DNA of 64,000 nucleotides from a virus. A model generated the notes under the pieces. The model had not been told where the DNA came from, did no database searches, and saw only the letters and a program-made list of their open reading frames with translations. Position numbers and translations under genes: made by a program. Shown here piece after piece: positions 15,049-62,408 of the stretch (within the stretch, counting starts at the first letter, position 1; each line of letters starts with the position of its first letter). The stretch covers positions 18,802 through 82,801 of the IMG/VR virus record IMGVR_UViG_3300046458_000091, one strand, 5' to 3'.

Positions 15049-16731
15049 TCAGGTCAGTGCAAACACGTTCTTGATGGTGATCAGCGCGCAACCCAGGGCC
15101 GAAGCCTTGTGCGGGTTGGCTTCAGTCAGTTGACGACTGAACAGCGCAGCACCGGTTTTCAGGTCGGAATTGACCGCCAGCGGGATCAGGGTCGGCGAGA
15201 CCGCATCAGAGAAGACAATCGGGTTACGCGCCACTTGCGGGGAGCGGCCGATGCACAGCATCTCGATGTCGGTCTCGGTTTCTTCGACGACATACGGGTC
15301 ATAGATGACGTCGTATTTGCCCTTGTAGCGGCCCACGCGCCAGAAGCCAGGCTTCGCGTCAACGCCGGACGATACGAAGTCGTTGCTGTCCATCGACAGG
15401 AACTGAGCCATACCGATAGCGCCCACGTAGATGAACGCCAGGCCGTATTCCATGGTGGTGTTGGCCACCGCCTGGTCAACAGCCGCGACGAACGAACCGA
15501 AGTCGCGCCAGCCCTGCGCACGGGTCTTCTGGAGCAGCATTTCAGCCGCGTTGAAGTCGTAAGTGCGGTGGGTGTTCTTCGCCAGCTTTTTGACCTTGCG
15601 CAGAGCCGCGATATAGCGCTCGTTGGCCAGCTGAGTACGCGCTGCCTGGACCGCGATGGTCAGGCGGTCGGCGCCCAGTTCCGACTGGGACTGGCTACGC
15701 GAATCAGGGGTGGCCTGCATGATCACGCGCGAGGGCGCGCAGTACAGGGAGAAGCTGGTAGCGATGGTGCCAATGTTCGGCGCCAGGGCTGGGTTTTGCT
15801 CGAAATCGATAAACGCCTGTGCGTCTACATCGACGTCCGCAGGCAGCGCCGTAGCGAACGCCAGAGAGCCCACGCCGGTTTTTACGTTGATTACACCGGT
15901 AATGGAGTAATCGGTGCCGCCCGCCGAAAAGGAGCCGACCAGATTGGAGTTGTCAGTGCCGGAGTTGTTGGACTGCTCGAAAGCAACCGAAAAACCGTTA
16001 ACTGCGATGGTGGTGCGGTTACGCAGCACAGGTACGGTGCCGCCAGCGCCACCGCTTTGGGTGGTAATGGCAAAGGTGCCGCTCTTGCGGTCGCCCGCGA
16101 TGGTCACCGGCACAACACGTTCAGAACGGGTGTACTCCTGGCCACCGGCCACGCCGTCGATGATGTCACCCGCTTTGTAGGCGCCGAAGGTGGAGCCTGC
16201 AATGGAGGTAATGATTGCCAACTTCGACTCGTTAGAGCTGAGGTCGGACGGCAGGTAAGCGCCGAACGGAATCGCCTCGCTCAGACCGCCAGTGATGGCC
16301 ACCGCGATGCGGTTCGGCTGGTGCGACAGGGACGCCGACGTGTTGTTGGTACTGATGCTGTCGAGGGTGACGCCATCGGGCAGGACGTTGGTGGCCTTGC
16401 CGTCAGAGATGTTTTCGGCCTGGGACAGAACGGCGTCCAGCAGGTCGGCGGACGGGGTGAAACCGTGTTGGCGTTCGAAGGCGTTGATGCCGTCGAGCAT
16501 GGAGGTTACGGCCAGGGCCTTGTTCTGGTCGCCGTCGATACGGTCCAGCAGGCGGCGCATGCGTTCAGGGGCCAGGCGTGCAGCGTCGGAGACAACGTTT
16601 TTCACAACGTCTTGGGATGCCGGGCTCAGGCTGTCGAGCATTGCGCCGTTATTACGGGCTGCCGCGACCATCGAACCAACTCGTTCCTCGACTTCGTACA
16701 AGCCGGAGTCGGGCGCGTAAAGATTGGGCAT
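15049..16731 (-). CDS. Major capsid protein (HK97-fold, with an inserted beta domain)
   Basis: 560 residues. The N-terminal ~110 residues are helical and delta-like, containing AMLDS at 30-34. A beta-rich stretch (about 110-300, VTIAGDRKSGTFAITTQ...) looks like an inserted or Ig-like domain. The C-terminal half has capsid features: ERYIAALRKVKKLAKNTHRTYD, EYGLAFIYVGAIGMAQFLS, FWRVGRYKGKYDVIYDPY, then IEMLCIGRSPQVARNP and KASALGCALITIKNVFAL. A T4 gp23-like maturation cut after the delta region is plausible, with the predicted protease at 48568 as the enzyme. It is separated from portal and protease by about 32 kb. Confidence 0.78.
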   Translation of the reverse strand: MPNLYAPDSGLYEVEERVGSMVAAARNNGAMLDSLSPASQDVVKNVVSDAARLAPERMRRLLDRIDGDQNKALAVTSMLDGINAFERQHGFTPSADLLDAVLSQAENISDGKATNVLPDGVTLDSISTNNTSASLSHQPNRIAVAITGGLSEAIPFGAYLPSDLSSNESKLAIITSIAGSTFGAYKAGDIIDGVAGGQEYTRSERVVPVTIAGDRKSGTFAITTQSGGAGGTVPVLRNRTTIAVNGFSVAFEQSNNSGTDNSNLVGSFSAGGTDYSITGVINVKTGVGSLAFATALPADVDVDAQAFIDFEQNPALAPNIGTIATSFSLYCAPSRVIMQATPDSRSQSQSELGADRLTIAVQAARTQLANERYIAALRKVKKLAKNTHRTYDFNAAEMLLQKTRAQGWRDFGSFVAAVDQAVANTTMEYGLAFIYVGAIGMAQFLSMDSNDFVSSGVDAKPGFWRVGRYKGKYDVIYDPYVVEETETDIEMLCIGRSPQVARNPIVFSDAVSPTLIPLAVNSDLKTGAALFSRQLTEANPHKASALGCALITIKNVFALT

Positions 16732-16847: not shown

Positions 16848-19800
16848 CTACTTTTCGAGCACGATCAAACGCCCCCCGGCGTCGGTTTGCGCCAGCAGGT
16901 TTTTATCCTTGAAGGTGCCGCCTTCCAGGGGTTCGACCGTGGCGTCATGGGACTCAAGCCAGGCCCTGAAGGACGTCGCCGCCGCATCTCGACCGAAGAA
17001 AACCCCTTCCCCTGCGATGGCTACCAGCGTTCCGCCAGGCGCCAACATGCCGAAGGCGCGCATGATGTGAGCGGCGTCCCGGCGATTGCTAAAGGGTGGG
17101 TTCATGATGATGGCCGGGTACGGCTGTTCCGGCGTGAAGGTGTCGAAGTCGTTGCCAACCACGTTGTAGCCCTTGGCCGTGAGGATCTCGCGCAGCTGGT
17201 CGGACAGCTCGATGACATCCACTTCCCCGCCAGCAGCCTTTGCAGCGTCCGCCAGGTTGCCATTGCCCGCGCTGGGCTCCAGTACCCGCATGCCTTTCTT
17301 GATACCCGCCAGGGTGGCCATACGCTGCGCCAGGTGCGCAGGGGTAGGGAAGAAATCCAGGCCCACTTTCTGGCCGATGATGGCCCGTTCAGCTTTCTTG
17401 ATGGGGTCCTCTTCGACCTTTGCAACCATCATCGGAATCAGCTCGCGCACGGCGGCCTGCATGGTGGCCACGTCGGTGATGCCCATGCGCGCCAGCCGAT
17501 CTGTCTTGGCGATGGCCTCCATGGGGGCCTCCAGAATCCATGAGCCGGTGCCGGTGCCTTTTAGCGCGTCGTTGGCCTTACGGGTAATGGCCATGTCCTC
17601 GCTGTTCATGGTGAAGCGCTCAGACCGCTGGCCCATCTTGGCCAGGGCTGCAATCAGTCGGCTGTTACCTTTGGGGTTCTGCTTGGCGATGGCTTCCGAC
17701 GCCTTACGGAAACGTTCAGACCATGTGATCAGGCTCGGCATAGTGACGTGCTTGAGGTCGTTATCATCGACCGGGCGGCCTTTGCGGCTCAGCTGCTCGC
17801 TGTAGCTCAGATGCTTATCAGCTTCGTATTGCGCAAGGTGCAGCGCCTTTTGCAGCTCTTCCAACTGGGCCCGGCTCGACAGCTTGGCCAGCAAACCGGC
17901 TGTACCGTTTTCGATGGCGTCGGCGATGTTGTTCAACGTCTGGCCAGCGGCTTTGTCGTAGGAAGCGCGAGCGACGGAACTGGCGGCCATACCAGCACGC
18001 CGGGCGGTGTTGGTGTTGCGCTCCTGGTTCATGCCCGCGTGACCGGTCTCTACGGCTTTATTCGCCACAGCACGCAGCTTTTCCACCTGGTTGGACAGCG
18101 CCTTTTGCGCGCGCTCTGCGGCCTGGCGTTCTGCGGTGGCGAGCTGCTCGGCCTGCTGTTCTGGAGACAGCACGACCGGCGCCTGGGCGGCCGGGATGTG
18201 GGCGGTCTCGCCGGACAAGTACTTCTCGCGGATGAAGTACCCGCCGTTCATGCGCCAGGTGTACGGGTCGATTTCCTTGGCTTGCGCCTGGGTCAGGTCG
18301 GTGCGGATGATGCCGCGCAGCACCTTGTCGCGCTTGGTGGTGTATTCAATGATCTGGTGGGCCACGTCGGACGCTGGCGGCGGCTCAGGCGCCTCAGCTG
18401 GCTCCGGCTCCGACAGTTCGCCCTCAATGAACATATTCAGGACCAGCCCGCCCATATCATCCAGCATGACATCGGCGTTTTCGTGTTCTACACTTGCCCC
18501 TGACGGATGCCCTGAATAGTTATCAGGGGAACATCTGCCCCCTAAAGCGGTGCTTGTTGAATCAAGCATCGCTTTTTCTTTGGGCGGGTCAATCATCAGG
18601 TCGTAATACAGATGACCCATGTTGTCTTTCTCGACGACCACCCGTACCGCTATCGACTCTCCCGCCAACGCCACGACGCTGCTCAGGTTGTAATAGCCCA
18701 CGACCTGGGGCTTTTTGTCGAGCTTGAAATTCTGCACAAACTCGGCCGCCGTGGCGCTCGCCAGGATCTGCGGCACCGCATGCAGCAATTTGATTTTCTT
18801 GGGGTTGCCGCTGAACGCCAACGTCTCCTTGATGCCGCGCTGTCGAATTTCGACCTGGGCCCCAAGCACCGGGCAATTCACCATCTGCCCGCGCATAGCC
18901 TTCAAATACGCTTCAGCAGCGCCCCGCAAGGCCTTCTTGCCCTCAGGGGTGTCCGGGAACTCTCCGAACTCAGTGCCGGTTAACTCAATCGGCGGCTTCG
19001 GTACGTCCGGCTCTTCAGCTGTCTGGTCTTGCTGGGCGGCCTGCTCAAGCGGTATGACAATTCCGCCTTTCTCCACAAAGCTCGCCAGCGTTACGCCGGG
19101 AGCCAGGGAAAATGGCTTAGATTGGGCACGTAGGTTATTGAGCACTACGCCATCTTGCCGCAACTGAGCCAATGCGCTGGGACCTTCGGCGTTCGCCCCC
19201 TGGAGTTGCAGGCTGCCCAGCGTATTGCGGTCGGAGCGGCCGGTTTTCTCAAGGCACTCAACGATTTTGTATTTAGCCCGTGCGACCTGGAATTCACGAA
19301 GAGGCAACTTATCGATACGGCTGGCCGCGTACAGGCTGAATGTATCGAAGCCCACCGCCTTCGCTGCATACTGGTCGGCCGCGTCTGAATCGTCGCCTTT
19401 GGCCTCTTGCTCGGACGGCGCCGCAGGCTGCTCGATTTCCGGCATGACGGCCAGCTTGCGGGCCGCCTCCACCAGCGCGTCAAAGTCCTTGCCGACGATA
19501 CGAATACCGTTACCGCCACCCGGGAGGCGGTAGCTCAACGTCAAGCCAAGTTCCTGCTTTTCCACGCGCGCCCAGGAGCCGACCGGCGTGCTACTGATCT
19601 TGCGGCTCACTACGCCCTGGTTATGGCGCTGATCGTACGGCAGGGTGTCGAGCCAGGAGACGAACGCGGTGGCCAGCACCTTCTGCTGGGCAATCATGCT
19701 GTCATAGCCAGCCTCAGCCGGTGGCATATCCGGCCGGGCGAATACGGGGTTTGCGCCGCCTTCAAAGCCTGCCCGGGTCAGGAACATGTTATTGGCGTTT

Positions 19801-20456
19801 TCCAGCACCCATACGGTGCCCAGCTTGCCCGCCCGGTAGTTGCGCAGGACGTAGCCGTTGGCCTTGGCCGCCTTGATGCCCTCCAGCGTGGCCCTGGCCG
19901 CTTCTGCGCCTCGATCTGCCTCACCATTGATGGTGACTGTCGCCGTGAACGAAAGGTGCTGTACGTTGCCCTGGTAGAACCAGACAGACGTATCTGCCCG
20001 GCTGTTGATGGCGTCGGCCTTCAGAGAGCCCGCAGGCGTGAGCACGTCGGCGGCCTTGACCATGTGCGGCTTGTTGTTAGCCGTAGCGATGTCGCGGGCT
20101 TTCCCGGCCTCCCAGGCGGCGGCCTCATCCCGGTCAGAGATGGCCTTTATGGCAGCGCTAAGGCGGTCAATTGCCGCGCCAGCGGCCGGGCTGACGTGCC
20201 CTGTGTTCAGCAGCTTTTCGTACTGGTCCAGGTCAGCCCGGGCCGCTTCACGTTCCGCAATGAGCGGGTCAGTCTCCGGCGCTGGCCGGGCGGCGCCCAG
20301 GATGGCGCGCAGCTCCAGGCCCCGGGCACTGGCCCGCACCTTCTCGATGGCGCTCAGCGTCCCGGCCTCCAGGCTGTCGCGGATCTGCAACAACTCAGCG
20401 CTGAAACGCATTAACTCTAAAGAGTTATAACTCTTTAACTCTATTGTCTCAGTCAT
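16848..20456 (-). CDS. Giant polyvalent protein: LPD3-like domain plus N6-adenine methyltransferase (Dar-like)
   Basis: 1202 residues. Residues 11-54 resemble the N-terminus of the 20449 product. About 505-625 match the polyvalent LPD3 pattern (AEAYLKAMRGQMVNCPVL, then GHLYYDLMID). AMLDS is at 629-633 and VMLDD at 663-667. The C-terminus is a Rossmann methyltransferase: DFFPTPAHLAQRM, motif I LEPSAGNGN (about 1058), motif IV NPPF (about 1119), so it should methylate adenine. Polyvalent proteins of this kind protect incoming phage DNA, as DarB of P1 does; packaging in the virion is inferred. The start overlaps the upstream stop (ATGACTGA); a second in-frame ATG is 45 bp downstream, after an octamer array. 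Confidence 0.85.
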   Translation of the reverse strand: MTETIELKSYNSLELMRFSAELLQIRDSLEAGTLSAIEKVRASARGLELRAILGAARPAPETDPLIAEREAARADLDQYEKLLNTGHVSPAAGAAIDRLSAAIKAISDRDEAAAWEAGKARDIATANNKPHMVKAADVLTPAGSLKADAINSRADTSVWFYQGNVQHLSFTATVTINGEADRGAEAARATLEGIKAAKANGYVLRNYRAGKLGTVWVLENANNMFLTRAGFEGGANPVFARPDMPPAEAGYDSMIAQQKVLATAFVSWLDTLPYDQRHNQGVVSRKISSTPVGSWARVEKQELGLTLSYRLPGGGNGIRIVGKDFDALVEAARKLAVMPEIEQPAAPSEQEAKGDDSDAADQYAAKAVGFDTFSLYAASRIDKLPLREFQVARAKYKIVECLEKTGRSDRNTLGSLQLQGANAEGPSALAQLRQDGVVLNNLRAQSKPFSLAPGVTLASFVEKGGIVIPLEQAAQQDQTAEEPDVPKPPIELTGTEFGEFPDTPEGKKALRGAAEAYLKAMRGQMVNCPVLGAQVEIRQRGIKETLAFSGNPKKIKLLHAVPQILASATAAEFVQNFKLDKKPQVVGYYNLSSVVALAGESIAVRVVVEKDNMGHLYYDLMIDPPKEKAMLDSTSTALGGRCSPDNYSGHPSGASVEHENADVMLDDMGGLVLNMFIEGELSEPEPAEAPEPPPASDVAHQIIEYTTKRDKVLRGIIRTDLTQAQAKEIDPYTWRMNGGYFIREKYLSGETAHIPAAQAPVVLSPEQQAEQLATAERQAAERAQKALSNQVEKLRAVANKAVETGHAGMNQERNTNTARRAGMAASSVARASYDKAAGQTLNNIADAIENGTAGLLAKLSSRAQLEELQKALHLAQYEADKHLSYSEQLSRKGRPVDDNDLKHVTMPSLITWSERFRKASEAIAKQNPKGNSRLIAALAKMGQRSERFTMNSEDMAITRKANDALKGTGTGSWILEAPMEAIAKTDRLARMGITDVATMQAAVRELIPMMVAKVEEDPIKKAERAIIGQKVGLDFFPTPAHLAQRMATLAGIKKGMRVLEPSAGNGNLADAAKAAGGEVDVIELSDQLREILTAKGYNVVGNDFDTFTPEQPYPAIIMNPPFSNRRDAAHIMRAFGMLAPGGTLVAIAGEGVFFGRDAAATSFRAWLESHDATVEPLEGGTFKDKNLLAQTDAGGRLIVLEK
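20413..20444. repeat. AACTCTWW octamer array (4 units) inside the 5' end of the polyvalent gene
   Basis: Units of exactly 8 bp start at 20413, 20421 (inverted), 20429 and 20437. They encode residues ELKSYNSLEL of the polyvalent protein or, if the second ATG is used, form its leader. Probable binding site for the RHH protein at 32135. Confidence 0.7.
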
Positions 20457-22764
20457 GCATTACCCCAAAAATCGAATCCAGCAGCGCTGTCTGTGTCATT
20501 GCTTTTTCAAAGGCCTTTTCATCGCGCAGGGCGGCGAACACCTGGTCAAACGCGGCATTGATGCGCGCGCGCTCTTCCCCTTCCGGGTATGGCTTGAAGG
20601 GCATCCCCAGGGCGGGCAGGTAGTGGTACTTGTTGTCAGCCAGGCAGCTGAGGTAATCGTTTTTGCGGTCCATGGCGGTCAACTTGTCTTCCAGGTAGGC
20701 CTGGAACGCGCGGGCGGCCATTTCGTGGGTCTCAGACCACTTACGTCCGGCTACACCGTCGTCGAGCGCTTGAGCCTCGACGTAGAAGCGCGACACGCTG
20801 GCGCCGGTCTTGGCGGTTGCCTCGGTGGCACCGACCGGCGAGTAGTACGCGGCGGCCAGCTGGCGCCACAGCTTTTTCTGCTTGAGCATGCCCGGGCTGG
20901 TTTCGCCCTCATATCGCTTATCTACCGCCAGCACCGCAGGCTCCAGGGCGCCCGCCTGCTTGATGGCCAGCGCCACATAGCCTGAACTGTTCTCGATATT
21001 GACGATGGCTGTGGCCCGGCTCTTGGGCGTCAGCTTGATGGTCTCCACCAGTCGCTCAGAGCCGCTGGTTAGGGCGGCCTTGAGCTGGACGAAGGCGGCG
21101 CGGATCGGCCCGGCAGGCATCAGCTCAGGGCGTTCCGTCGCAAACTCTTCCTTGGCGCCCTCTTCTCCGCGCAGCAGGGACGGCATGATGTTGTCCAGGG
21201 CCTTGAACGCTTCGTGTCCCTGGCTACCGGCGCCGTTGAGCTTGGTAATGTTGATGACGCGCTCTACCGGTTCGTAGTGGGCCTTCGCCGCGCCCTTCCC
21301 GCCCGCACCACGCGCCCCGAACGCCATGCCCAGGCGCCCGCCGAACCCAAGCTTGTCCTCTTCGATCTGGAGGACGTCGCTCATGTCCATCCAGGCCCCG
21401 GCGCTCTGCTCTACGTGCCACTTGGCGGCGGCGAAGTCCTCTTGTACCCAGGTGCCGGACTGCACCGCCCGAAAGCCGCACAGCTTTTCAAGGTCGGCCG
21501 TGGACGTCACTGTCACCGGCCGCCCGCCGCTGCGTTCGAACTTCTCGACCACCTTCAGGGTGAAGGTGATGCGCTTTTTAGGCGCCTGGCGCTCTGGATC
21601 TGGCTTTTCCTTTTCGGCCCAGTCCCAGTTATCGGGCTCCCCTTCCTCAGCCTTGGCCACCTGCCCGGCAAAGGTGCCGGTGCGCAGGCGCTGGAACATG
21701 ACCGCGTTGATAAAGCGGCTGCCCATGGACGTCCAGGCCTGGGCCTCTGGTGTGCGCAGGTGGCGGGCCTTGGCGGCGTCCTCCAGGGCGGTTTTCTGCG
21801 CCTCGACATCGGCAATCTGTGCCCGCAGCGCTGCAAACTCTTCCTTAGTGGCCGCCACCTCGCTGCCGTACGCGGCGATATCGGCAGCAGCTGCGGCCGT
21901 GGTCGTTTCTACCGCCTCTTCGTGCATGGGCGCGACCTTCCAGCCGCGTTTGACTCGGTTTTCAAGCTCGGCCTTGGCCTGGTCCCGCGCCGCCGTGGTC
22001 CGGCTCATCGCGTTGTACAGGGTGTTACGGCCGACCATGATTGCTTTCTGCCGGTCGCCCAGTTCTGCCCGCTGCTGAGTCAGCGCGTTGAACTGCTCCA
22101 CCTCATCACTGTTGAGGCTCGCGCCGGTCAGCTCTTCCCCGATCTCAGCCGCAGCCGCCACCACTTCCTCAGTGGTCGTGAGCCGCTCCATCCGCGTGCG
22201 CAGCGTCTCAATGCCGATGGCATAGGATCTGCGCGACTTGGGGCTGTCCTCGGCTGGCATGGGGGCAATGGCGGCGTACAGGCGATTGACCAGATAGCCC
22301 GCCTGGGGCGTCATGCCGCTTTCACGCTGGGCCGCCCAGTCAACACTACCGAACAGGTTGGCCTTTTTGATCAGTTCGCGCGCCTGGCGCGGATTCTCTT
22401 CAATGGCCTTGAAGTCGATGTCAGAGACCCGGAGCATCTGCCCGGCTTCACGCGCCAGCTTGATCGACTGGGCGGCCAGCTCTTTACGGCTGCCGGAGAT
22501 GTACCCGGTGTCCTTGTAGCGGTAGTTTTCGGCGTTCGGGTCATCGCTCAAGCCGTCGTCGGCGGCGAACTCTGCGGCCTGCTCAGCATCGACCGGCACG
22601 GGACCGGTGGCAGTCTCGCCGCCCAGGGCGGCATAGAGCGCCAGCGCCTCGGTGGTGGCGCGGATCTGCTCCATGGCGTTCAAGCTGCCGGACTGAAGTT
22701 GCTCACGCAGTTGCAGCAGCCTGGCGGCGCTGCGGGCCTGCTCGATGGAAGAAAGGGAATTCAT
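20449..22764 (-). CDS. Polyvalent protein with degenerate zincin (LPD1-like) domain
   Basis: 771 residues. Residues 2-48 (IEQARSAARLLQLREQLQSG...) resemble the start of the next gene. The middle (about 220-340) is helical. Residues about 465-750 match the LPD1/zincin domain of polyvalent proteins: FGGRLGMAFGARG, AHYEPVERVINITKLNGAGS, then HEAFKALD and later EMAARAFQAYLEDKL and NDYLSC. The expected HExxH reads HEAFK, so the second metal His is lost and protease activity is doubtful. ALLDS occurs at 760-764, just before the C-terminus. It is translationally coupled to the methyltransferase protein. Confidence 0.82.
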   Translation of the reverse strand: MNSLSSIEQARSAARLLQLREQLQSGSLNAMEQIRATTEALALYAALGGETATGPVPVDAEQAAEFAADDGLSDDPNAENYRYKDTGYISGSRKELAAQSIKLAREAGQMLRVSDIDFKAIEENPRQARELIKKANLFGSVDWAAQRESGMTPQAGYLVNRLYAAIAPMPAEDSPKSRRSYAIGIETLRTRMERLTTTEEVVAAAAEIGEELTGASLNSDEVEQFNALTQQRAELGDRQKAIMVGRNTLYNAMSRTTAARDQAKAELENRVKRGWKVAPMHEEAVETTTAAAAADIAAYGSEVAATKEEFAALRAQIADVEAQKTALEDAAKARHLRTPEAQAWTSMGSRFINAVMFQRLRTGTFAGQVAKAEEGEPDNWDWAEKEKPDPERQAPKKRITFTLKVVEKFERSGGRPVTVTSTADLEKLCGFRAVQSGTWVQEDFAAAKWHVEQSAGAWMDMSDVLQIEEDKLGFGGRLGMAFGARGAGGKGAAKAHYEPVERVINITKLNGAGSQGHEAFKALDNIMPSLLRGEEGAKEEFATERPELMPAGPIRAAFVQLKAALTSGSERLVETIKLTPKSRATAIVNIENSSGYVALAIKQAGALEPAVLAVDKRYEGETSPGMLKQKKLWRQLAAAYYSPVGATEATAKTGASVSRFYVEAQALDDGVAGRKWSETHEMAARAFQAYLEDKLTAMDRKNDYLSCLADNKYHYLPALGMPFKPYPEGEERARINAAFDQVFAALRDEKAFEKAMTQTALLDSIFGVMHD

Positions 22765-26753: not shown

Positions 26754-28028
26754 TTACTCTTCAGGCAGGCCCAGGCTGGCAGCCGTGACGCCCAGCAGTC
26801 CCGCCCATTTTTGCCCCATCGTCACGACATACGCAGACTCAGACGGCGAAAGGGTCTCAACGGCTTTTATCGCATAGTCGAGCACGCGATGTCCGGCGTT
26901 GGGGGCAATGATACTCATCTTGCTGCCCGGCTCCAGCAGCTGGCCCTCGACGATCTGCGTGCCGACCCATGTGCGCCCCTGGAACGGCTGGCAGTCAATG
27001 ACGATGCCGTCACGGACATACCACTCTGTGAAGTCCTGGCCACGGTCCTCCAGGGAAATGTGCTGCACCAGCACAGGCGCTGCCGGTGTCATGTCGGCGC
27101 TCGCTGCCACATAGGCCGCGTGCTCAAGGAAAACCATGGCCAGCGGGTCCCACTGATCCAACAGCACAAGGTCTTCCTCAGCCATTTCAGCGCGCGGCGT
27201 CAACAAATACCGGCCCAATTCGTCAAAGTGACACGGCAACGGCGTCTTAGTGGCGAACCGATCATAGGAGGCTGGATTCAGGGTTACCCGCCGATCCTTC
27301 ACCGCCTCGACCGCGTGAACGTTGCACTGCGCGCGTAGGTTCAGGAACCGCTTACGGTAGTCGCTTGAATTAGGGCGCTCGCCCAAACGGCTGCGTACCA
27401 GAAGCTTGAGGCCCAGCCGTTCAAGAATCTTGATGAACTGAGCGCCAAGGCCGGACACATCGACCAGCACAGTGCAGTTTTTGTACTCGTTTGCTGTCGC
27501 GGCTACTACGGCGGCCATCTGCAACAGATCATCAGAAAACGAATCCAAAACGCCCGCTACTTCCTCGACACAGCGGGGCTCTTTGGCCATCCGGTCGCCA
27601 TTGCCAAAGACGCGAAACAATGTCGCCACCGTCCGTTCACGCATCACGCCTGCGCCCACAACAACCGAAATCAGGTAGCCGGATGACTCGCCAGGCCTGA
27701 TAACGCTGCCGGGCTCATGTGACAGGCAAGGCTGCAACTCTTCAGGCCTCAACAGGCTGTTGGCGGCTACTGGCTCCTTGGCCTCCACTGCGGCCTCATC
27801 ATCCGCGACCGGCGTGCAGTGATCCAGGCTGACGCAACCGGATTTGCCCTCTAACCAAATCACAGCGGTGCGGCCGCTCAGTACCTGGGCTTCGCTCTTG
27901 GTCCGGCCGCGAAAGGTTTCGCCCTCGCCCACAATTTCCTCATAGGAAACCATGGCGCCCTCTTTGTATTTCGCGTTCCAGGCATCGCAAATGGCTTGCA
28001 GCTCTGGGTTTGCTTTCACTGTTGCCAT
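26754..28028 (-). CDS. Terminase-nuclease paralog without ATPase domain
   Basis: 424 residues. The first ~75 form a small domain (WNAKYKEGAMVSYEEIVGEG, GRTAVIWLEGKSGCVSLDH). Residues about 110-325 align with the nuclease domain of the TerL at 57375: GNGDRM, DYRKRFLNLRAQCNVHAVEAVKD, FDELGRYLL and LAMVFLE are shared. TerL's first catalytic Asp (IIVDVAAG) is Val here (ISVVVGAG); the second (VLVDVSGLG) and third (LLDQWDPLAM) are kept. The C-terminal ~95 residues form another small domain. No Walker motifs. It may bind DNA or the packaging machine, or act as an altered nuclease. Location among early genes, not packaging genes, argues against a simple terminase role. Confidence 0.8.
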   Translation of the reverse strand: MATVKANPELQAICDAWNAKYKEGAMVSYEEIVGEGETFRGRTKSEAQVLSGRTAVIWLEGKSGCVSLDHCTPVADDEAAVEAKEPVAANSLLRPEELQPCLSHEPGSVIRPGESSGYLISVVVGAGVMRERTVATLFRVFGNGDRMAKEPRCVEEVAGVLDSFSDDLLQMAAVVAATANEYKNCTVLVDVSGLGAQFIKILERLGLKLLVRSRLGERPNSSDYRKRFLNLRAQCNVHAVEAVKDRRVTLNPASYDRFATKTPLPCHFDELGRYLLTPRAEMAEEDLVLLDQWDPLAMVFLEHAAYVAASADMTPAAPVLVQHISLEDRGQDFTEWYVRDGIVIDCQPFQGRTWVGTQIVEGQLLEPGSKMSIIAPNAGHRVLDYAIKAVETLSPSESAYVVTMGQKWAGLLGVTAASLGLPEE

Positions 28029-28086
28029 GGGGCTTTTCCTTTCAATCTCTGGGGTGATTGAACGCCGTTGACCGGCGCCTGGGGCA

Positions 28087-29977: not shown

Positions 29978-32005
29978 TCAGAAAGTGCCAGCCGTGGCCT
30001 TGAGCGCATAGGTGGCATAGGCGTCTGAGGCCTCGATAAACAGCTCTCGCAGCTCGCCCTCCCCGTAGGCTGCATAGATGCGTTCCATCTCCTTGAGCAC
30101 GTCCGCAGGCGCGCCCAGATCGGTGGAACCTTCAATGATGCTGTCCAGGTACTCTTTTGCCTTCTGCACTTGCTCATCCTCGGTTGGGTCTGGTGGTGGT
30201 TGTACCGCTTCAGGTTGCGGCGGTGGTTGATCGGTCTCCGGCTCCGACGTTGCCGCCTGGCGCACGGCTTCGGCCGCCTCCTGGGGCGTCTTGCCATCGG
30301 CGAACAGCTGGCCGGTCAATGCTTCTTGAGTCATGGCCACGGCCTGGGCGTCACCATCGGACGCCTCCAGCAGTTCGGCCAGGGTCTGGATAAAGGCCTC
30401 ATCCCACGCCGGGCGCAGCAACACAGGCGCGGGCTCTGGCACTTCAGGTGCAGTCTGTTGCTGATCGGCCAGGGCTTTGGCGTCCGCTTCTGCCTTCGCA
30501 TCCACAGCGGCCAGCCCAGCGCCATCCGTACCGGCCTTGGCCGCCCGCACCAGCGCCCCGCCCACGTCGGCCATGATTTCGGCCTTGGTGACGGCTGCCG
30601 CGTCCAGCTTGAACCCGGCCTTGGTCAGCAGCTCGCGCAGGTCATCCTGGCTGTCGATGCCCTCAATCACCTTGAGCGCGGCGTCGATATCGCCAGCCTT
30701 CAGGCCGTCCGTGAATTTGGCCAGGTCGTCGCGGGTATCTTCCGGTGGCGGTGGCTCGGGGAATAAGCCCGGCTCACCACCTGGCGGCGTGGCCTTTTTC
30801 TTCTCCAGCTGGGCGGTCAGGTCAACAATCTGAGCGTCCAGGTCGGCCAACTGGGCGGTTTTGCTGTCTACGGCCGCCTTCGCCTCAGCCAGCGCCGCGT
30901 CGTCAGCGGCCTTGTTCTCGTTGGCCTTACCGAACTTCGCGCTGTTCTTCTGCACCAGCGCCATGATGCGCCGGGCAACGATACGCGGGTTCAGATCCTG
31001 GCCGCGCTCGGGCGCCACGGTGGCGGTAATGTCCCGCTTGTTCAGTACCCATTTCCAGCTGATCAGTTCATCACTGGCCATGAGCTTGTTCGGCGTGCTG
31101 TCCGGGTTGTGGAAGAACACCGACACGCTCTGGCCGTCATCCATGGAGAACAGCATGCCCACCTGGGTGGTGCCACGGCTCTTGAATGGCTTGCTGACAT
31201 CGACGCTTTCCGCCTTCACGTCGCCGCCCACGTTCTGCATCACGCGCAGCAGCTGGGAGGCCTTGCGGTCGAACTGCTTGTACTCGATCACCATGGCATC
31301 CAGCATGCCGTCGTCGCTCAACTCCTGGGCGATGTCATCCATGGTGGCGCTGTCCATCATCAGGCTGTCGGCGTCATTGCGGCGCAGCTCGTACAGCAGG
31401 TCCGCTACGGTGGTGTCTACCGGCAGGTTGTCGGCGCCCCAGCGCGCGAATACGTCAGTCATGCTCAAGGTCTCATCTTTGGGGATATTGGGGAGGTCGG
31501 CGCTCAGTGGCTGGCTGAGGTCGCCATGCTTGAGCCAGTACTTGAACTGGGTGACGGTGCAGGCAGTCATGCTGCCCAGGCCTTGCCACCCGCGTTCATA
31601 GGAATTCATGTAGGCGTTGCGGGCCTGTTCCTCATCCATGAACCCAAGCATTACCTTGTGCTCATCAAACGAGCCGTCAGCGGCATTCTGGTTGACCACG
31701 TACACGGCCTGGCTCTCTGGCGCCGGGCCAACGTAGATGTCCACCGCGTCACCGTCCGCGCCCTTGGTGCCGTTCACATACCCGTAATGCGCCATACAGG
31801 TGATTGACCACGCCTTACCGTCGCTCTTGCCACGGCGCGGCTGGTGCATCGGTGTCTCGATGGTGATGCGCATCCCGTGGAGCTGCGTGGAGCCCTTGGC
31901 ATAGTTACCGGCCCGGATCTGCTCCGGCGTCGGTTCAGCGGTTGACCCCAAGCCGAACGCGCCCGCGTGTGCGGCACTTTGAAGATTGCTAAAAATGTCG
32001 GTCAT
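29978..32005 (-). CDS. Polyvalent protein with inorganic-pyrophosphatase-like (InPase) domain
   Basis: 675 residues. Residues 33-165 match the InPase domain of phage polyvalent proteins: NYAKGSTQLHGMRITIE, AHYGYVNGTKGADGDAVDIY, VGP, NAADGSFDEHKVMLGF and YERGWQGLGSMTACTV. LMMDS is at 215-219 and GMLDA at 233-237. Residues about 245-400 form a beta-strand plus coiled-coil region similar to the N-terminal half of the 34127 product. The C-terminal 250 residues are helical and acidic. The group is thought to counter host defences on DNA entry. It lies upstream of a terminator and downstream of the RHH gene. Confidence 0.78.
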   Translation of the reverse strand: MTDIFSNLQSAAHAGAFGLGSTAEPTPEQIRAGNYAKGSTQLHGMRITIETPMHQPRRGKSDGKAWSITCMAHYGYVNGTKGADGDAVDIYVGPAPESQAVYVVNQNAADGSFDEHKVMLGFMDEEQARNAYMNSYERGWQGLGSMTACTVTQFKYWLKHGDLSQPLSADLPNIPKDETLSMTDVFARWGADNLPVDTTVADLLYELRRNDADSLMMDSATMDDIAQELSDDGMLDAMVIEYKQFDRKASQLLRVMQNVGGDVKAESVDVSKPFKSRGTTQVGMLFSMDDGQSVSVFFHNPDSTPNKLMASDELISWKWVLNKRDITATVAPERGQDLNPRIVARRIMALVQKNSAKFGKANENKAADDAALAEAKAAVDSKTAQLADLDAQIVDLTAQLEKKKATPPGGEPGLFPEPPPPEDTRDDLAKFTDGLKAGDIDAALKVIEGIDSQDDLRELLTKAGFKLDAAAVTKAEIMADVGGALVRAAKAGTDGAGLAAVDAKAEADAKALADQQQTAPEVPEPAPVLLRPAWDEAFIQTLAELLEASDGDAQAVAMTQEALTGQLFADGKTPQEAAEAVRQAATSEPETDQPPPQPEAVQPPPDPTEDEQVQKAKEYLDSIIEGSTDLGAPADVLKEMERIYAAYGEGELRELFIEASDAYATYALKATAGTF

Positions 32006-33647: not shown

Positions 33648-34130
33648 ATGTCAGATACCCCGGCAGGGATGAAAATAATGGTCACGGTAGGCGGTTACGG
33701 TGGCGCAGGTGCTGAGCCGATCACCCTCACAGCCTTTAAAAACAATGCATTAGGGACGACGGTCATCCTGGGCAAGGTTGGGTATAGGGATATACCAGAC
33801 GAAGGCTTTGCCTTTGTCACGAATCTGCGCCTGGCGAACTACGACAGTCTGTTCCGGGACGAAGACATGGGCGCCGCCATCGTGGCGTTCAAAGAGGGCG
33901 AAGGGATGGGCACGATCCTGTTCGACGACGAAGCGATGAAGTACCGCCCCCGGATCGAAATCGACGGCGTGGACACGAAGGGTCAGAAATACCGGCTGGG
34001 CGGGGATATGACGAACGGGGAGATTGCTGTGCTGGCGCTGGCGCATTTCCTCTCGCGCCAGCGCTCCATGAGTGCCGTCTTCAACATGAGCGACGAACTC
34101 ATGCGGGTGTATCAGATCAGGTCGATTTAG
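33648..34130 (+). CDS. Hypothetical protein, the only plus-strand gene in the middle region
   Basis: ATG at 33648 with a CGGAGA site 7-12 bp upstream; 160 residues (MSDTPAGMKIMVTVGGYGGAG...). Blocks: FAFVTNLRLANYDSLFRDED, IVAFKEGEGMGTILFDDEAMK, then a C-terminal helical part. Convergent with the 34127 gene; the two stop codons overlap (34127-34130). Its control must be separate from the minus-strand neighbours. Family not recognised. Confidence 0.6.
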   Translation: MSDTPAGMKIMVTVGGYGGAGAEPITLTAFKNNALGTTVILGKVGYRDIPDEGFAFVTNLRLANYDSLFRDEDMGAAIVAFKEGEGMGTILFDDEAMKYRPRIEIDGVDTKGQKYRLGGDMTNGEIAVLALAHFLSRQRSMSAVFNMSDELMRVYQIRSI

Positions 34131-35338
34131 TCCTGGGCAGCGAAAGGGACCCCATACGGGTCGTACCCGGCATCCTCAAGCGCTGACCGGCCAGCATTCG
34201 TGAGCATATACAGACCCTCGGTGGTCTCCACCAGACCCAGCGCCAGCAGCTGAGCCAGCGCAGCCTGATCCTTGATTTCTTCAGCGTCGGCGGCCGAAAT
34301 CACAGCGATGCTGACCAGCTCAGCCAGACCGGCGTCACTCAGACCCGTGTCGGCGCTGTCCAGCATCGCAATGGCGGTCTTGAACGACAGCGCAAGGTTG
34401 CGCTCCAGGGCGGCCTGATCAAGGTTGCCCTCAGATTCGTTGATTGGGGCGTTGTTCTCCACCACGGCCAGGGCCTGGCGCAGCTGCTCGACAGCGCCAG
34501 CGGTGGCCAGGCTATCCAGCATCACCGGATCTGCCGTGACGATATCCCGCGCCGCGACGTAGGCCGCAGCCACCACCAGTTCAGCCGGTTGCTCTGGTAC
34601 GTCCGCGACCTGGCCCCCGTCGATGCTATCCAGGAGCGCCGCCGCAGCCTTACCGGCAGCATTGAGCACGTTCGCCCCTTCGTCGGTGTAGCGGTCAACC
34701 CAGCCCAACTCAATCAGGTCATCACGCCCCGCCTTGCTGGGAATGTCCCCGTCATCCAACGGCCCCATCTCTGCCAAGGCGCGCAACACGTCCTTGGCCG
34801 CATCGTTCAGTTCTGCCGGTGCCTTCGCCTGCGGCTCCATACTGTCGGTCATGGCGCCCAGCTGCTGCTGGAGATCGGCCACGGTCGCTGCACGGTCGGC
34901 AATCTGGGTGTCCAGCTGCGCCAGGCGCTCCGCGTAGACCTGGGACTGTTTGGGCTTCGTCGTGCGCATGCCCCGGGGCAGCTCAATCTGTTTGCGCGCC
35001 TGGGCCTTCTGGAATGCAGCTTGGTTTCGCTCAGCCAGGGCCGCGATTTCAGCCACGGCCGCCGCGCTGTCGGTCTGGTTCTTCAGTGGCACCGCGTTGC
35101 CGTTCAGCGTGACCTGGAAGATATCGCCGGTAGCATTCACACGCAGCACCACCACCTGGCCGCTCGCCAGCGTCAAGGTGGCCTCGCGGTAGGTCACGCC
35201 CGATACGCGGCGCTTCTTGTCGTTGAACTCATACCCGGCCACGGCCTGGCCTGCTCTGATCATCAGTTGGCTGACTTTCTTGAGGGCCTTGTCTGCGGCC
35301 TGTGCGCTGGAGAAATCAAGCGTATTCGTTGCTGGCAT
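34127..35338 (-). CDS. Polyvalent-like protein with three MLDS motifs
   Basis: 403 residues. Residues 10-110 are a beta-rich domain (SQLMIRAGQAVAGYEF, EATLTLASGQVVVLRV) followed by a coiled coil (QVYAERLAQLDTQIADRAATVA), similar to residues 245-400 of the InPase polyvalent protein. The rest consists of Ala/Leu-rich helices with ALLDS (234-238), VMLDS (272-276) and AMLDS (324-328), and two winged-helix-like repeats (LRALAEMGPLDDGDI; LGLVETTEGLYMLTNAGR). Likely an accessory of the polyvalent group; biochemical function unknown. Confidence 0.62.
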   Translation of the reverse strand: MPATNTLDFSSAQAADKALKKVSQLMIRAGQAVAGYEFNDKKRRVSGVTYREATLTLASGQVVVLRVNATGDIFQVTLNGNAVPLKNQTDSAAAVAEIAALAERNQAAFQKAQARKQIELPRGMRTTKPKQSQVYAERLAQLDTQIADRAATVADLQQQLGAMTDSMEPQAKAPAELNDAAKDVLRALAEMGPLDDGDIPSKAGRDDLIELGWVDRYTDEGANVLNAAGKAAAALLDSIDGGQVADVPEQPAELVVAAAYVAARDIVTADPVMLDSLATAGAVEQLRQALAVVENNAPINESEGNLDQAALERNLALSFKTAIAMLDSADTGLSDAGLAELVSIAVISAADAEEIKDQAALAQLLALGLVETTEGLYMLTNAGRSALEDAGYDPYGVPFAAQD

Positions 35339-56794: not shown

Positions 56795-56955
56795 TGCCGG
56801 GCGCCCTTGGCCATGCGCGCCAGCCGGTCGATTTGGGTCTTTGCCTTGAGCAGCTGCACGGCGTGAGCCCGTACAGCGCGGATCTGACCCAGGCGGTACG
56901 CGCCAACCAGGCTGAAGACAAAGAACACAGCGGCGCCCACGCCCCACCAGATCAT
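56791..56955 (-). CDS. Small single-pass membrane protein
   Basis: 54 residues (MIWWGVGAAVFFVFSLVGAY, then a basic helical tail RLGQIRAVRAHAVQLLKAKT). It has one membrane segment at residues 2-19. Start and stop overlap both neighbours (56952-56955 and 56791-56794) in the ATGA style, which strongly supports translation. Confidence 0.68.
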   Translation of the reverse strand: MIWWGVGAAVFFVFSLVGAYRLGQIRAVRAHAVQLLKAKTQIDRLARMAKGARQ

Positions 56956-57302
56956 TGCTTAGTACCTGCGGGAAGGCGCGCAAGGCTCGCCTCAACCTCC
57001 TGGCGAAACTCTTCGGGGGTCAGCATGGTGGTGTCCACCAGCCGTTCGGCCAGATTCTCAGAAAGCTTGGCGTTGGCCGCCCGCAGCTCTTCAATGGTGG
57101 CCAACTGGTCGTCCAGGATGTTAGCCATCGCGTCGAGCCAACGCCGGTCAACCTTGGCGGGATCACGCTGTAGCACGCCCAGGGCATCAGCCATCAGCGT
57201 CGTGTCGCCGGAGCTGGCGCCTATGCCGCGCAAGGCATCCTGCTTGATTCTGGACAGCCAGCCGACTGTTATCGGCCCCTGATGAACGAGCGTGCTACTC
57301 AT
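56952..57302 (-). CDS. Hypothetical helical protein
   Basis: 116 residues. WLSRIKQDALRGIGASSGDT, WLDAMANILDDQLATIEELR, then AKLSENLAERLVDTTMLTPE. First gene of the operon 57302 down to 54472; a possible promoter is at 57335-57362. Function unknown. Confidence 0.58.
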   Translation of the reverse strand: MSSTLVHQGPITVGWLSRIKQDALRGIGASSGDTTLMADALGVLQRDPAKVDRRWLDAMANILDDQLATIEELRAANAKLSENLAERLVDTTMLTPEEFRQEVEASLARLPAGTKQ

Positions 57303-57374: not shown

Positions 57375-58940
57375 CTATGTGAGCCCAGCCATAACCGCCC
57401 GCGCCGCCTCCAAGGCCAACTTGCGCCGGTCGCTGGCGTTGTCGAACGACTCGCCCTGTGCAGGCACGTAATCGACGCCTTCCAGGAAGGCCATGGCCAG
57501 CGTGTCCAGGAGGTCGGGAGATGGCAGGCCCTCGGCGGCCATGTCCTGCTTGCGGGCGATGTGGTAGCGCCCCAGCTCATCCAACACGTAGGGGATACGG
57601 CTGGCTTGGTCGATCAGGTCCTTTTTGTACTTGCTGCTCAGGCGCACCACGCCATCCTTGACGGCCTCGACGAAGTGCACCGTTGATTGCGCGCGCTGGT
57701 TGAGGAAGCGCTTGCGGTACTCGTTGCTGAACGGCAGTTCGCCCCAGCGCACGCCCTTGACGTGGATACCGCCGCCAGACAGCTCCACCAGCCGCTTGAG
57801 GAACTGGTTACCCATACCGTTGGTATCGACAATGATGGTCACGTTGCTGAACGCTGCGGCGTAGTCCAGGACCTTGCGCGCCACGGGCGTCCAATCCTCG
57901 GTGTTCGTGTACACCGGCACGTCTACAACCTCGATACGGCGCCGGTCGGCGGTCATCCGGTCGCCGTTGCCTATCATCTTCAGGTGAGTCGCCACCGTCT
58001 TGTCTCGGCCTACGCCCGCCGCGACGTCCACGATGATGACGTGGCCAAAGGCTTCGCCCGGCAAGATGACGTGCGGGCCTTCAATGACGTGCTCCAGGGC
58101 GGCCTGGCTGAGCAGGTACTTGCTGGAGTTGGTCGGGAACATGCCCCGGACCTTAATTTGATACTCGACCTCATCCCGGCCGCCGTACTGCTGAAGCTTC
58201 TCTTTGATGAACGCCACACCGACAAGCGTGCTTTCCTCAGAACTGAACGTGAGGTTTGTCCAGGGGCCGCCCTGGCGCACGCTGTTGTTGTGGTGGGAGT
58301 CACGGAAAAACCCGCTGTTGCGCGTCGGCTGGGACGCCATGACGAAGCGGTTGCGGGGGTCTGTGAGTGCGCCCCCGATCACGCCAAAGTTTTCATCAGC
58401 GATGCCAGATGCTTCGTCCGCCAGCCACATCAAGTAATCGGCGTGCGTACCTGCCAGGTTCTCCGGCGAGCCACGCGGCGCTGTACGGGTGGTGACGTAC
58501 CAAATGGCGCTTTTTAGGTTCACGTAGACCTTTTCGGCCTGGATCGTGAAGTAGTCGGCAATCCAGGCATGCGGGCCTTTCTCAATCATCGCCTTGAGGG
58601 TGGTGATTTCTTTCCACACGCCCTCTCGCACCGTCTTGAGCTTCGGCGCGGTGATGTAGGTGTTGGAGTTGCGGTAGCAGAGCAGGTGCCATAGGGCGAT
58701 GACGCCAAAGCTGCGCGTCTTGCCGGTGCCGTGCCCAGACGCCACCGACACCCGACACCCGTACTTGGATGCGGCGTCGAACAGCTCTTGCTGCTGGTGG
58801 GTGACCGGCTTACCTGTGATACCCATCCCGCACACCTCTACGGCGAAGCGGTACAGGTCGAAGGCGTAGCGTTCAACGAATGCAGGCCAGCGCGGGTCAG
58901 CATCCAGCGCCAATTTTCTTTGTTTTTTCGCCTTGGCCAT
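57375..58940 (-). CDS. terL: Terminase large subunit
   Basis: 521 residues. The packaging motor: ATPase with Walker A SGHGTGKT (68-75) and Walker B YLMWLADEASG (catalytic Glu), followed by the coupling block MASQPTRNSGFF. The nuclease domain has all three Asp: IIVDVAAG, IIVDTNGMG and LLDTLAMAF. It resembles terminases that pair with a TerS of the Terminase_2 type, here at 61323. Several small genes lie between the two subunits. The C-terminal nuclease is duplicated at 26754. Confidence 0.93.
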   Translation of the reverse strand: MAKAKKQRKLALDADPRWPAFVERYAFDLYRFAVEVCGMGITGKPVTHQQQELFDAASKYGCRVSVASGHGTGKTRSFGVIALWHLLCYRNSNTYITAPKLKTVREGVWKEITTLKAMIEKGPHAWIADYFTIQAEKVYVNLKSAIWYVTTRTAPRGSPENLAGTHADYLMWLADEASGIADENFGVIGGALTDPRNRFVMASQPTRNSGFFRDSHHNNSVRQGGPWTNLTFSSEESTLVGVAFIKEKLQQYGGRDEVEYQIKVRGMFPTNSSKYLLSQAALEHVIEGPHVILPGEAFGHVIIVDVAAGVGRDKTVATHLKMIGNGDRMTADRRRIEVVDVPVYTNTEDWTPVARKVLDYAAAFSNVTIIVDTNGMGNQFLKRLVELSGGGIHVKGVRWGELPFSNEYRKRFLNQRAQSTVHFVEAVKDGVVRLSSKYKKDLIDQASRIPYVLDELGRYHIARKQDMAAEGLPSPDLLDTLAMAFLEGVDYVPAQGESFDNASDRRKLALEAARAVMAGLT

Positions 58941-60444: not shown

Positions 60445-61047
60445 TTAATCCCCGACCTTTGCGGCCCGCGCTTGCATCATCAAATCCGCGTACTGCCAGC
60501 GCAGTTGAACAAGGCGTTCGAGGTCGCCAGGCTCGTTAGGAAAGCCGCCATGCGAGAAGGGCGCATGTACGGCGAAGTCATCGCGCAAATCGCTCAGGTA
60601 CTGCTTGTCGGCCTGATATTGGCGCTCAAGGGCTTGTTGTTCCCGTGCCCGCTTCTTGTCAGTCGCCAGAGCCACGCTCTCCGACATGATTTGATCGGCA
60701 GAGCGCGGCGTACGGCGGTCGATCACCGGCCGGGCCGGGGAGGGGGCTGTGCTGCCCTTGAGCGTGGTCACGTCAGCACCAGCCACCAACAGCGTGCTGG
60801 GCGAAGTAGCCGTGATGTACGCATCTATCAGCGGACGCATGGCTACCGGCGTGACCGCAACACCGGCCTTGCCGCGCTCGACGGGGAGCCAGCGCTTGCC
60901 ATCGATACGCACATGGAAGTGCTGACCGGCACCACCATCACGCACCGCGACACCGTAGTTTTCCAGCCAGGTACGGAACCCCGGCATCTGTTCAGGCTGC
61001 AACAGCCCTGCATCGTTGGTTTTGATATCGCCAGCAACTGCGTTCAT
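60445..61047 (-). CDS. Hypothetical early protein
   Basis: 200 residues. The N-terminal ~60 residues (FRTWLENYGVAVRDGGAGQH, VRIDGKRWLPVERGKAGVAV) look like a small alpha/beta domain, the middle is Pro-rich, and the C-terminus is a basic helical part (DKKRAREQQALERQYQADKQ). Upstream is the HTH gene 61051 (3 bp). Unknown role. Confidence 0.55.
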   Translation of the reverse strand: MNAVAGDIKTNDAGLLQPEQMPGFRTWLENYGVAVRDGGAGQHFHVRIDGKRWLPVERGKAGVAVTPVAMRPLIDAYITATSPSTLLVAGADVTTLKGSTAPSPARPVIDRRTPRSADQIMSESVALATDKKRAREQQALERQYQADKQYLSDLRDDFAVHAPFSHGGFPNEPGDLERLVQLRWQYADLMMQARAAKVGD

Positions 61048-61050
61048 GGG

Positions 61051-61326
61051 TTACTCCTGTGCCGCATAGGGCTTTAGGTTTTGAGGCCGTCCGGGGTGCT
61101 TGGAGCTGCCCCGCTGGGGGGTGACGGCGGTTTGGCGCATAGAGAACTGTCCGGTCTTGAACTGGAACAGCTCCCACAGGCCGACTTTCATTGCTACGGT
61201 TCCGTCCTCATACGTCTGCCAGGCCCTGCGGCTGACATAGATAAGATCGGCGCACGCACGCTGACTCAGGCGAGCGTGGGCTCGGGAGTCTTTGACCTGC
61301 TGCATCGTTGGGCTTGGGACCTTCAA
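61051..61326 (-). CDS. XRE-type HTH protein after terS
   Basis: 91 residues from TTG at 61326 (overlapping the terS stop) or 84 from ATG at 61305. HTH at about 13-45: AHARLSQRACADLIYVSRRA, WQTYEDGT. The C-terminus is short and basic. It may regulate packaging genes or be a DNA-binding partner of TerS. Confidence 0.7.
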   Translation of the reverse strand: MKVPSPTMQQVKDSRAHARLSQRACADLIYVSRRAWQTYEDGTVAMKVGLWELFQFKTGQFSMRQTAVTPQRGSSKHPGRPQNLKPYAAQE

Positions 61327-62408
61327 TTGACGATCCCGATCTGGGCCAGCTCTTGGGCGCGCTCAAGCATGGCGGCCTTGTTGGCCTCGGTGTTCTTCTC
61401 GGCGCGCGACATGATTTCGTCGAGCTGCTCGTCGGTGACCACGTTCACGGCCGCGACAGTAGGCTCTACGCTCATGTTGAACAGCTTGGCCAACAGCTCG
61501 CGGTAGCCCTTCTGGCTTGCCACTTTGATTTCTGTGCCGTCCTTGCCTTCCTTAACGCCCTCATAGATCGCCAAGGCCGCTGGGCTCAGGTCTGAAGTGT
61601 CTTTGAACAGGACGTGGCCATAGCCTTCGCCGTCGCACTCAGGGCAAGCGGGGTTCGGCTTGCGGGTAGCGTTGTAGCCAACACCGCCCATCTCGTCGAA
61701 CGGCCCTATTACCTTGTCTTGCTCGGCCGCTTCTGCCTTGGCGATTTCGTATTGCTCACGGCGAGCCAGCATTTCACTGGGGCGCAGCTGGTGCTTGTGA
61801 TCTTTGCCGTAGCAGCACCGGCAGCACCGACGCACGTACTCAACCAGCTCACGCGGATCAGCGAAGGACGCGGCATGGACCACGCCCAGGATCTGGTTTT
61901 GTACGTCGGCGGTGCGCGCGAACAGCTCGACCTGGCGAGCCTGCGTATAAGGGTGATGCTTAACCTTTCTTAGCAGCTTGCTGGCGCCCACAGCCGCAAC
62001 GTTGTCGTTCTTGCACTTGTAGCCCGCCTCACGGTACGCCTGCGCCGCGCTGTAGCTCACCAGCCACAGATCCACGAAACGCGCCTGCCGGGCGTCAAGG
62101 CCGTGCAGATTCGCGGTTTCCAAGGCCTCCAGCTCTTTTGGCGTGAGCGTGATCGGGTTCTTGATGGTGGCCGTGCCAGGCTTCCTGGATGGCGTAGGAG
62201 CGGGAATATCAGCTGCTGGAGACGTCTTTACCGGGGGCTTTCTGGTAGCCGCGGTGCGTGCCTTGGCGGGCTTTTTGGCCTGTTCGGGCTTGCTAACCTT
62301 AGCCGCACGGGGCTTTTTGGGTGTGCTAAGTGGGGCAGAGGCTGCGGGCGGCGCTTCATTGCCCCCCGTCGTGCCGGTCGTTCCTGCCTTTGTCCTGCGA
62401 GCAGCCAT
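61323..62408 (-). CDS. terS: Terminase small subunit with long basic N-terminus and zinc-ribbon
   Basis: 361 residues. Residues 1-90 are Lys/Ala/Pro-rich and disordered. Residues 93-165 have the Terminase_2 pattern (LDARQARFVDLWLVSYSAAQ, AYREAGYKCKN, GASKLLRKVKHH). Then CRCCYG and CPECDGEGYG suggest a zinc-ribbon. The C-terminus is the oligomerisation part. It recognises the packaging site, which should lie nearby; 62409-63049 is a candidate. Confidence 0.85.
   Translation of the reverse strand: MAARRTKAGTTGTTGGNEAPPAASAPLSTPKKPRAAKVSKPEQAKKPAKARTAATRKPPVKTSPAADIPAPTPSRKPGTATIKNPITLTPKELEALETANLHGLDARQARFVDLWLVSYSAAQAYREAGYKCKNDNVAAVGASKLLRKVKHHPYTQARQVELFARTADVQNQILGVVHAASFADPRELVEYVRRCCRCCYGKDHKHQLRPSEMLARREQYEIAKAEAAEQDKVIGPFDEMGGVGYNATRKPNPACPECDGEGYGHVLFKDTSDLSPAALAIYEGVKEGKDGTEIKVASQKGYRELLAKLFNMSVEPTVAAVNVVTDEQLDEIMSRAEKNTEANKAAMLERAQELAQIGIVN

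Follow-up and report, generated by a model that had tools for sequence, protein, structure and literature searches.

Few phage proteins are as conserved as the large terminase subunit, TerL. The host receptors Avs1-4 recognise TerL, the portal or another phage protein (PMC12931631), and in the terminase of phage G20c the three metal-binding aspartates of the nuclease are indispensable (PMC5389553). The closest precedent for the protein described here is the vestigial nuclease at the C-terminus of phi29 gp16, an RNase H-like terminase nuclease without catalysis that is itself part of the motor (PMC7672431). Other proteins are comparable in role. Tab blockers, encoded by Pseudomonas prophages close to terminase genes, disturb the assembly of other phages (PMC10884400), and the packaging hijack and interference proteins of PICIs are mobile-element proteins that act on phage packaging (PMC6739421).

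We analyzed a stretch of 64,000 nucleotides (the window) taken from an IMG/VR virus record of 82.8 kb. The source is a temperate P1-like phage-plasmid that also encodes a Rep3 initiator, ParA, and DarA-, DarB- and Hdf-like proteins. Its TerL has P1-group PacB among its closest phage relatives (36-37% identity) and is intact, with a complete Asp triad and Walker A. The terminase genes and those adjoining them are:

61323..62408, minus strand: terminase small subunit
60445..61047, minus strand: gene between terS and terL, the insert-free form of type B (see below); its relatives in five phages carry a dead nuclease
57375..58940, minus strand: intact TerL (PacB-like), the paralogue with full triad and Walker A
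56952..57302, minus strand: RGIGASSGDT gene after terL (sequence comparison)

Layout of gene 26754-28028 and its nuclease domain

About 30 kb from terS and terL is a gene with the following features:

26754..28028, minus strand: gene of the probably inactive ("dead") nuclease, 424 aa, with N domain, TerL nuclease domain and C domain
28037..28042, minus strand: Shine-Dalgarno-like AAAGGA 5' of the ATG, spaced from it by about 8 nt (sequence reading)
27774..28028, minus strand: N domain, residues ~1-85, phrog_9165; six relatives have it at this locus as a gene on its own
27081..27734, minus strand: TerL nuclease (RNase H-fold) domain, residues 99-316 (homology and model)
27660..27662, minus strand: codon 123, GTT (Val), at the position of catalytic Asp1, TerL D305 (alignment)
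26757..27077, minus strand: C domain, residues ~318-424, phrog_27241 (PHROG match)

Using BLASTP, we found 43% identity between residues 99-312 and the phage's own TerL (219 columns, E=6e-43), and the motifs GNGDRM, YRKRFLN-RAQ, DELGRY and LAM-FLE are common to both. The initial annotation had placed this homology to the nuclease half of TerL at residues ~110-325 and had described a further C-terminal domain and a missing ATPase; all three agree with our results. The match begins at about TerL residue 274, and ATPase homology is absent from the protein. The PHROG matches, phrog_9165 over residues 1-80 and phrog_27241 over 318-421, are to small phage proteins annotated without a function, and the N domain also weakly matches a "transcriptional regulator" PHROG. 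No promoter of the gene's own was evident, and the upstream gap of 58 bp suggests that the gene is in an operon.

Because a sequence search of the PDB with the protein gave nothing useful, assignment of the fold rests on models. The AlphaFold2 model had a mean pLDDT of 78.9, rising to about 90 in most of the nuclease domain. Its Foldseek matches in the PDB were terminase nuclease domains (6m5t, E=4e-3; 3c6a, probability 1.00; 4iox, probability 0.98), those of herpes and RB49 included. Among predicted viral structures there were 45 matches at E<=1e-3, and the named ones were mostly large terminases. Structure prediction, proposed initially as a check on the RNase H fold, thus favours it. As first read from the sequence, Asp1 of the catalytic triad (TerL D305) is replaced by Val123 and the other two (D190 and D291) are kept; the counterpart of TerL D313 is Glu. 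Because Asp1 is lost and the triad is indispensable in G20c, the protein is very probably not a nuclease. A sequencing error of one base (GAT to GTT) is disfavoured, since Asp1 is absent from 12 of 12 paralogues from separate records.

The gene is located between a DarA-like gene and LPD1/DarB-like genes, a position that lends no support to its original assignment to an early region:

29978..32005, minus strand: DarA_N and InPase protein (DarA-like), upstream neighbour (domain matches)
20449..22764, minus strand: LPD1 protein, downstream neighbour (domain matches)
16848..20456, minus strand: LPD3 and methyltransferase protein (DarB-like), downstream neighbour (domain matches)

In six relatives (G402, G404, G405, G411, G413 and G426), a gene for the N domain alone is found between the corresponding neighbours; in G405 the LPD1/DarB side is beyond the contig end and the locus is marked by a shared small gene. 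These genes are 46-70% identical to the N part of 26754-28028, and three of the six, read directly, are about 90 aa in length. A short linker is all that separates N from C in the P. juntendi plasmid NZ_CP091089 and in an IMG/VR contig of identical sequence. Because both N-only genes and a direct N-C fusion exist, the nuclease domain looks inserted between N and C, having joined an existing small gene; it had been supposed that a small N-terminal domain replaced the ATPase. The same architecture was to be sought in other phages; our searches of IMG/VR, PLSDB, INPHARED and 400 Pseudomonas genomes yielded no further case of the order N-nuclease-C. The N domain is also free-standing in F116-like phages. 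By sequence reading, gp24 of phage F116 (L006:4248-4619) has a CsrA-like N-terminal half and a copy of the N-domain family.

A motif, AMLDS ([AVML][ML][LM]D[SD]), occurs 14 times in seven window proteins, compared with 0.6 occurrences expected by shuffling. Its carriers are chiefly Dar/Hdf-like proteins and a gene adjoining the portal, and the motif looks like a head-protease cleavage site:

11535-12278, 15049-16731, 16848-20456, 20449-22764, 29978-32005, 34127-35338 and 48568-49488: AMLDS proteins

The motif of its neighbours is absent from the 26754-28028 protein, which argues against its being a head-internal protein that is processed as the Dar proteins are.

TerL-half paralogues in related phages

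We surveyed paralogues by a TerL-based scan of IMG/VR (54 loci), followed by whole-record searches and local analysis. Nuclease-half paralogues were present in 12 related P1-like Pseudomonas phages, the window included, in at least five gene contexts. The initial annotation missed this recurrence of dead TerL halves, along with the apparent location of the nuclease inside an older gene. Type A (26754-28028) is a singleton, found in one genome. In L130, L131 and L132 the paralogue is directly after TerL, and in the latter two it is joined to an RGIGASSGDT segment resembling window gene 56952-57302. Type B (five genomes) is a dead nuclease inside relatives of window gene 60445-61047; for one type B protein, the AlphaFold2 model matched the TerL nuclease of Pseudomonas phage E217 (E=2e-8). 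Type C (two genomes) has a Ser-rich tail, and L133 has a divergent paralogue fused behind another protein.

Asp1 is absent from all 12 nuclease-half paralogues and present in 23 of 23 TerLs, while Asp2 and Asp3 are each kept in nine of the 12. Homologues with a complete triad had been named as grounds for rejecting the first reading; those in the relatives lack Asp1 as well. Because the 12 genomes are related, these losses do not amount to twelve independent events, and the recurrent loss could be convergent or partly inherited. Presence of the paralogues is patchy among close relatives, and records of distant P1-like phages gave a single nuclease match each. A more degraded copy of the TerL nuclease, type D, is found close behind terL in six genomes. 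It matches the TerL nuclease in a two-sequence HMM search (E=2.5e-13), and the catalytic Asp is apparently lost.

L134:12326-13120: type D protein, with orthologues in L010, L135, L136, L142 and L145

The other half of TerL has been recruited also. ATPase-half paralogues were detected in 14 of the 31 records searched, and none was found in the window. They are directly upstream of terL in 13 of 13 loci read, and the Walker A GTGKT is missing from all 12 that cover that region. Full-length pseudo-ATPases are present in E. coli P1/D6-like phage-plasmids, with 163 matching plasmid records at a coverage of at least 80%; none was found in the annotated post-doc region of P1 itself, where pdcB is annotated as an HNH endonuclease. 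The E. coli protein, a 364-aa TerL ATPase-like protein that has lost the Walker A Lys, is annotated as hypothetical or "terminase large subunit".

L010:28273-28992, L009:6283-7068, L140:6786-7472: ATPase-half paralogues without Walker A (examples)
L237:8203-9294 (NZ_CP122510.1), L240:1495-2589, L241:1495-2589: E. coli 364-aa pseudo-ATPase

Some TerL genes have a Hint/intein-like insertion near Walker A (L011:37278-39554, NZ_CP070504; also L143, L147 and L148).

The paralogue families are under purifying selection and evolve faster than TerL. The dN/dS of paralogue gene pairs was 0.09-0.49 (type D pairs, 0.09-0.21), compared with 0.04-0.10 for TerL pairs; the measure covers families with orthologue pairs, and type A, a singleton, falls outside it. 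For the nuclease part of 26754-28028 compared with its own TerL, pN was 0.42 and pS 0.66. In a phylogenetic tree the paralogues fall in several groups. A single clade for all 12 was rejected by the AU test (p=0.008, with long branches), and one clade was not rejected for type A, the after-TerL type and type B together (p=0.16) or for the set without type A and L133 (p=0.08). More than one origin is thus likely, but the unrejected subsets and the long branches leave this short of proof.

Possible roles of the TerL-like domain

Because the dead domain is kept under selection, a role in binding is suggested. Our preferred reading, tentative and held at slightly less than even confidence, is that a dead TerL nuclease is retained as a binding module, predicted to act as a TerL mimic that occupies partners of TerL without cutting. 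A catalytically dead TerL nuclease domain would have been duplicated and set inside a conserved small phage gene. The product would occupy proteins that normally meet the TerL nuclease, leaving DNA uncut, with its N and C domains serving to position it or make it stable. The partner could be the packaging motor, DNA, another phage's terminase or a host sensor of TerL. The functions put forward in the initial annotation (a decoy that blocks packaging, a nuclease inhibitor, a binder of DNA structures, a superinfection factor) all stay candidates. The likeliest use would be as a decoy shielding TerL from TerL-recognising host sensors of the Avs type, and the next likeliest would be to compete with related phages' packaging motors.

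The homology to the phage's own TerL, the fold, the fact that both halves of TerL have been taken up by a range of genes, and the location among Dar-like (anti-restriction) genes are consistent with mimicry. So is the active-site pattern, with Asp1 gone from 12 of 12 paralogues and kept in 23 of 23 TerLs, and with Asp2 and Asp3 each surviving in nine of the 12. A role in conflict is favoured because the paralogues evolve fast and are patchily present, and because the two halves are interchangeable and sit with varied partner genes. A decoy should resemble the TerL domain that is recognised, and the domain does so (43% identity to its own TerL nuclease), a likeness that does not imply function. 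The broader proposal, in which P1-like phage-plasmids repeatedly build a dead nuclease or ATPase half of TerL into other genes to serve as immune-sensor decoys, seems to us rather unlikely, and a TerL mimic might trigger a sensor instead of blinding it.

The dead halves beside terL in many relatives also suit a role in the motor. In this rival explanation the phage's own packaging motor has an accessory or regulatory subunit: associating with the TerL ring or with its DNA, the dead halves would govern initiation, the headful cut or the change-over between translocation and cleavage. Pseudo-ATPase genes are directly upstream of terL, type B lies in the terS-terL interval, and just downstream are type D and the after-TerL type. 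The vestigial nuclease of phi29 gp16 retains DNA binding (PMC7672431), and herpes terminase has non-catalytic regulator subunits (PMC7196598). However, a core part of the motor is expected to be more conserved than these genes, which some close relatives have and others lack, and the copy in the window lies 30 kb away from terL. Overall we consider this explanation unlikely.

Less probable again is an adaptor for DNA or DNA structures, in which the RNase H fold would have kept a DNA groove and would bring the two flanking domains to DNA during, for instance, transcription or replication. In its favour, the RF-N-RAQ region has largely survived, as have Asp2 and Asp3; the C-terminal domain of phi29 gp16 binds DNA despite lost catalysis (PMC7672431); and the N domain, besides its weak regulator match, is joined to a CsrA-like domain in F116 gp24. 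This alone would not explain recruitment of ATPase halves. We regard as very improbable a superinfection factor, expressed from the prophage, that poisons packaging of related incoming phages. Pseudomonas prophage genes that block assembly of other phages do exist, and tab homologues are always between terminase genes (PMC10884400), but the gene has no evident promoter of its own, the 58-bp gap points to an operon, and the phage's own TerL would have to be spared. Functionless recombination debris, to which the singleton architecture of type A and the inteins in some relatives' TerL (e.g. NZ_CP070504), which could promote breaks and rearrangement, might point, is scarcely credible given 424 open codons, pN below pS relative to TerL, a nuclease model mostly at pLDDT about 90, and the dN/dS of the paralogue families, which marks them as maintained proteins.

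Recurrent dead TerL halves, selected and housed in unrelated genes, would amount to a TerL-mimic class of counter-defence or else to a layer of packaging control not seen before. The decoy reading, if true, would be counter-defence by mimicry of the phage's own conserved motor. The pseudo-ATPases of E. coli P1/D6-like phage-plasmids mean that a tractable model host exists.

Comparison with known systems

In the literature searched, which left most subscription papers outside its coverage, nothing described additional dead halves of TerL within other genes, and no TerL decoy was found. The Avs receptors are the proposed target of a decoy and are themselves defence proteins (PMC12931631). Tab, at 83 residues, acts on tail assembly and has no similarity to TerL, unlike the 26754-28028 protein (PMC10884400). 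PICI proteins are encoded by satellites, whereas this one is encoded by a phage, and they are likened to it by role and not by TerL homology (PMC6739421).

The TerL/PacB proteins of P1-like phages share with it a homologous nuclease domain of the same fold, with 43% identity in the case of its own TerL. It differs from them in having no ATPase domain, in the loss of Asp1 and in being encoded by another gene 30 kb away. Of the characters of a TerL it has the RNase H fold, and it lacks the Walker A/B ATPase, the full triad and adjacency to terS. With the vestigial nuclease of phi29 gp16 it shares both the fold and the loss of catalytic residues, although only one of the three catalytic Asp is lost here. 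In phi29 the nuclease lies within the packaging ATPase polypeptide (PMC7672431), whereas in this phage it is an extra copy in another gene, alongside an intact TerL.
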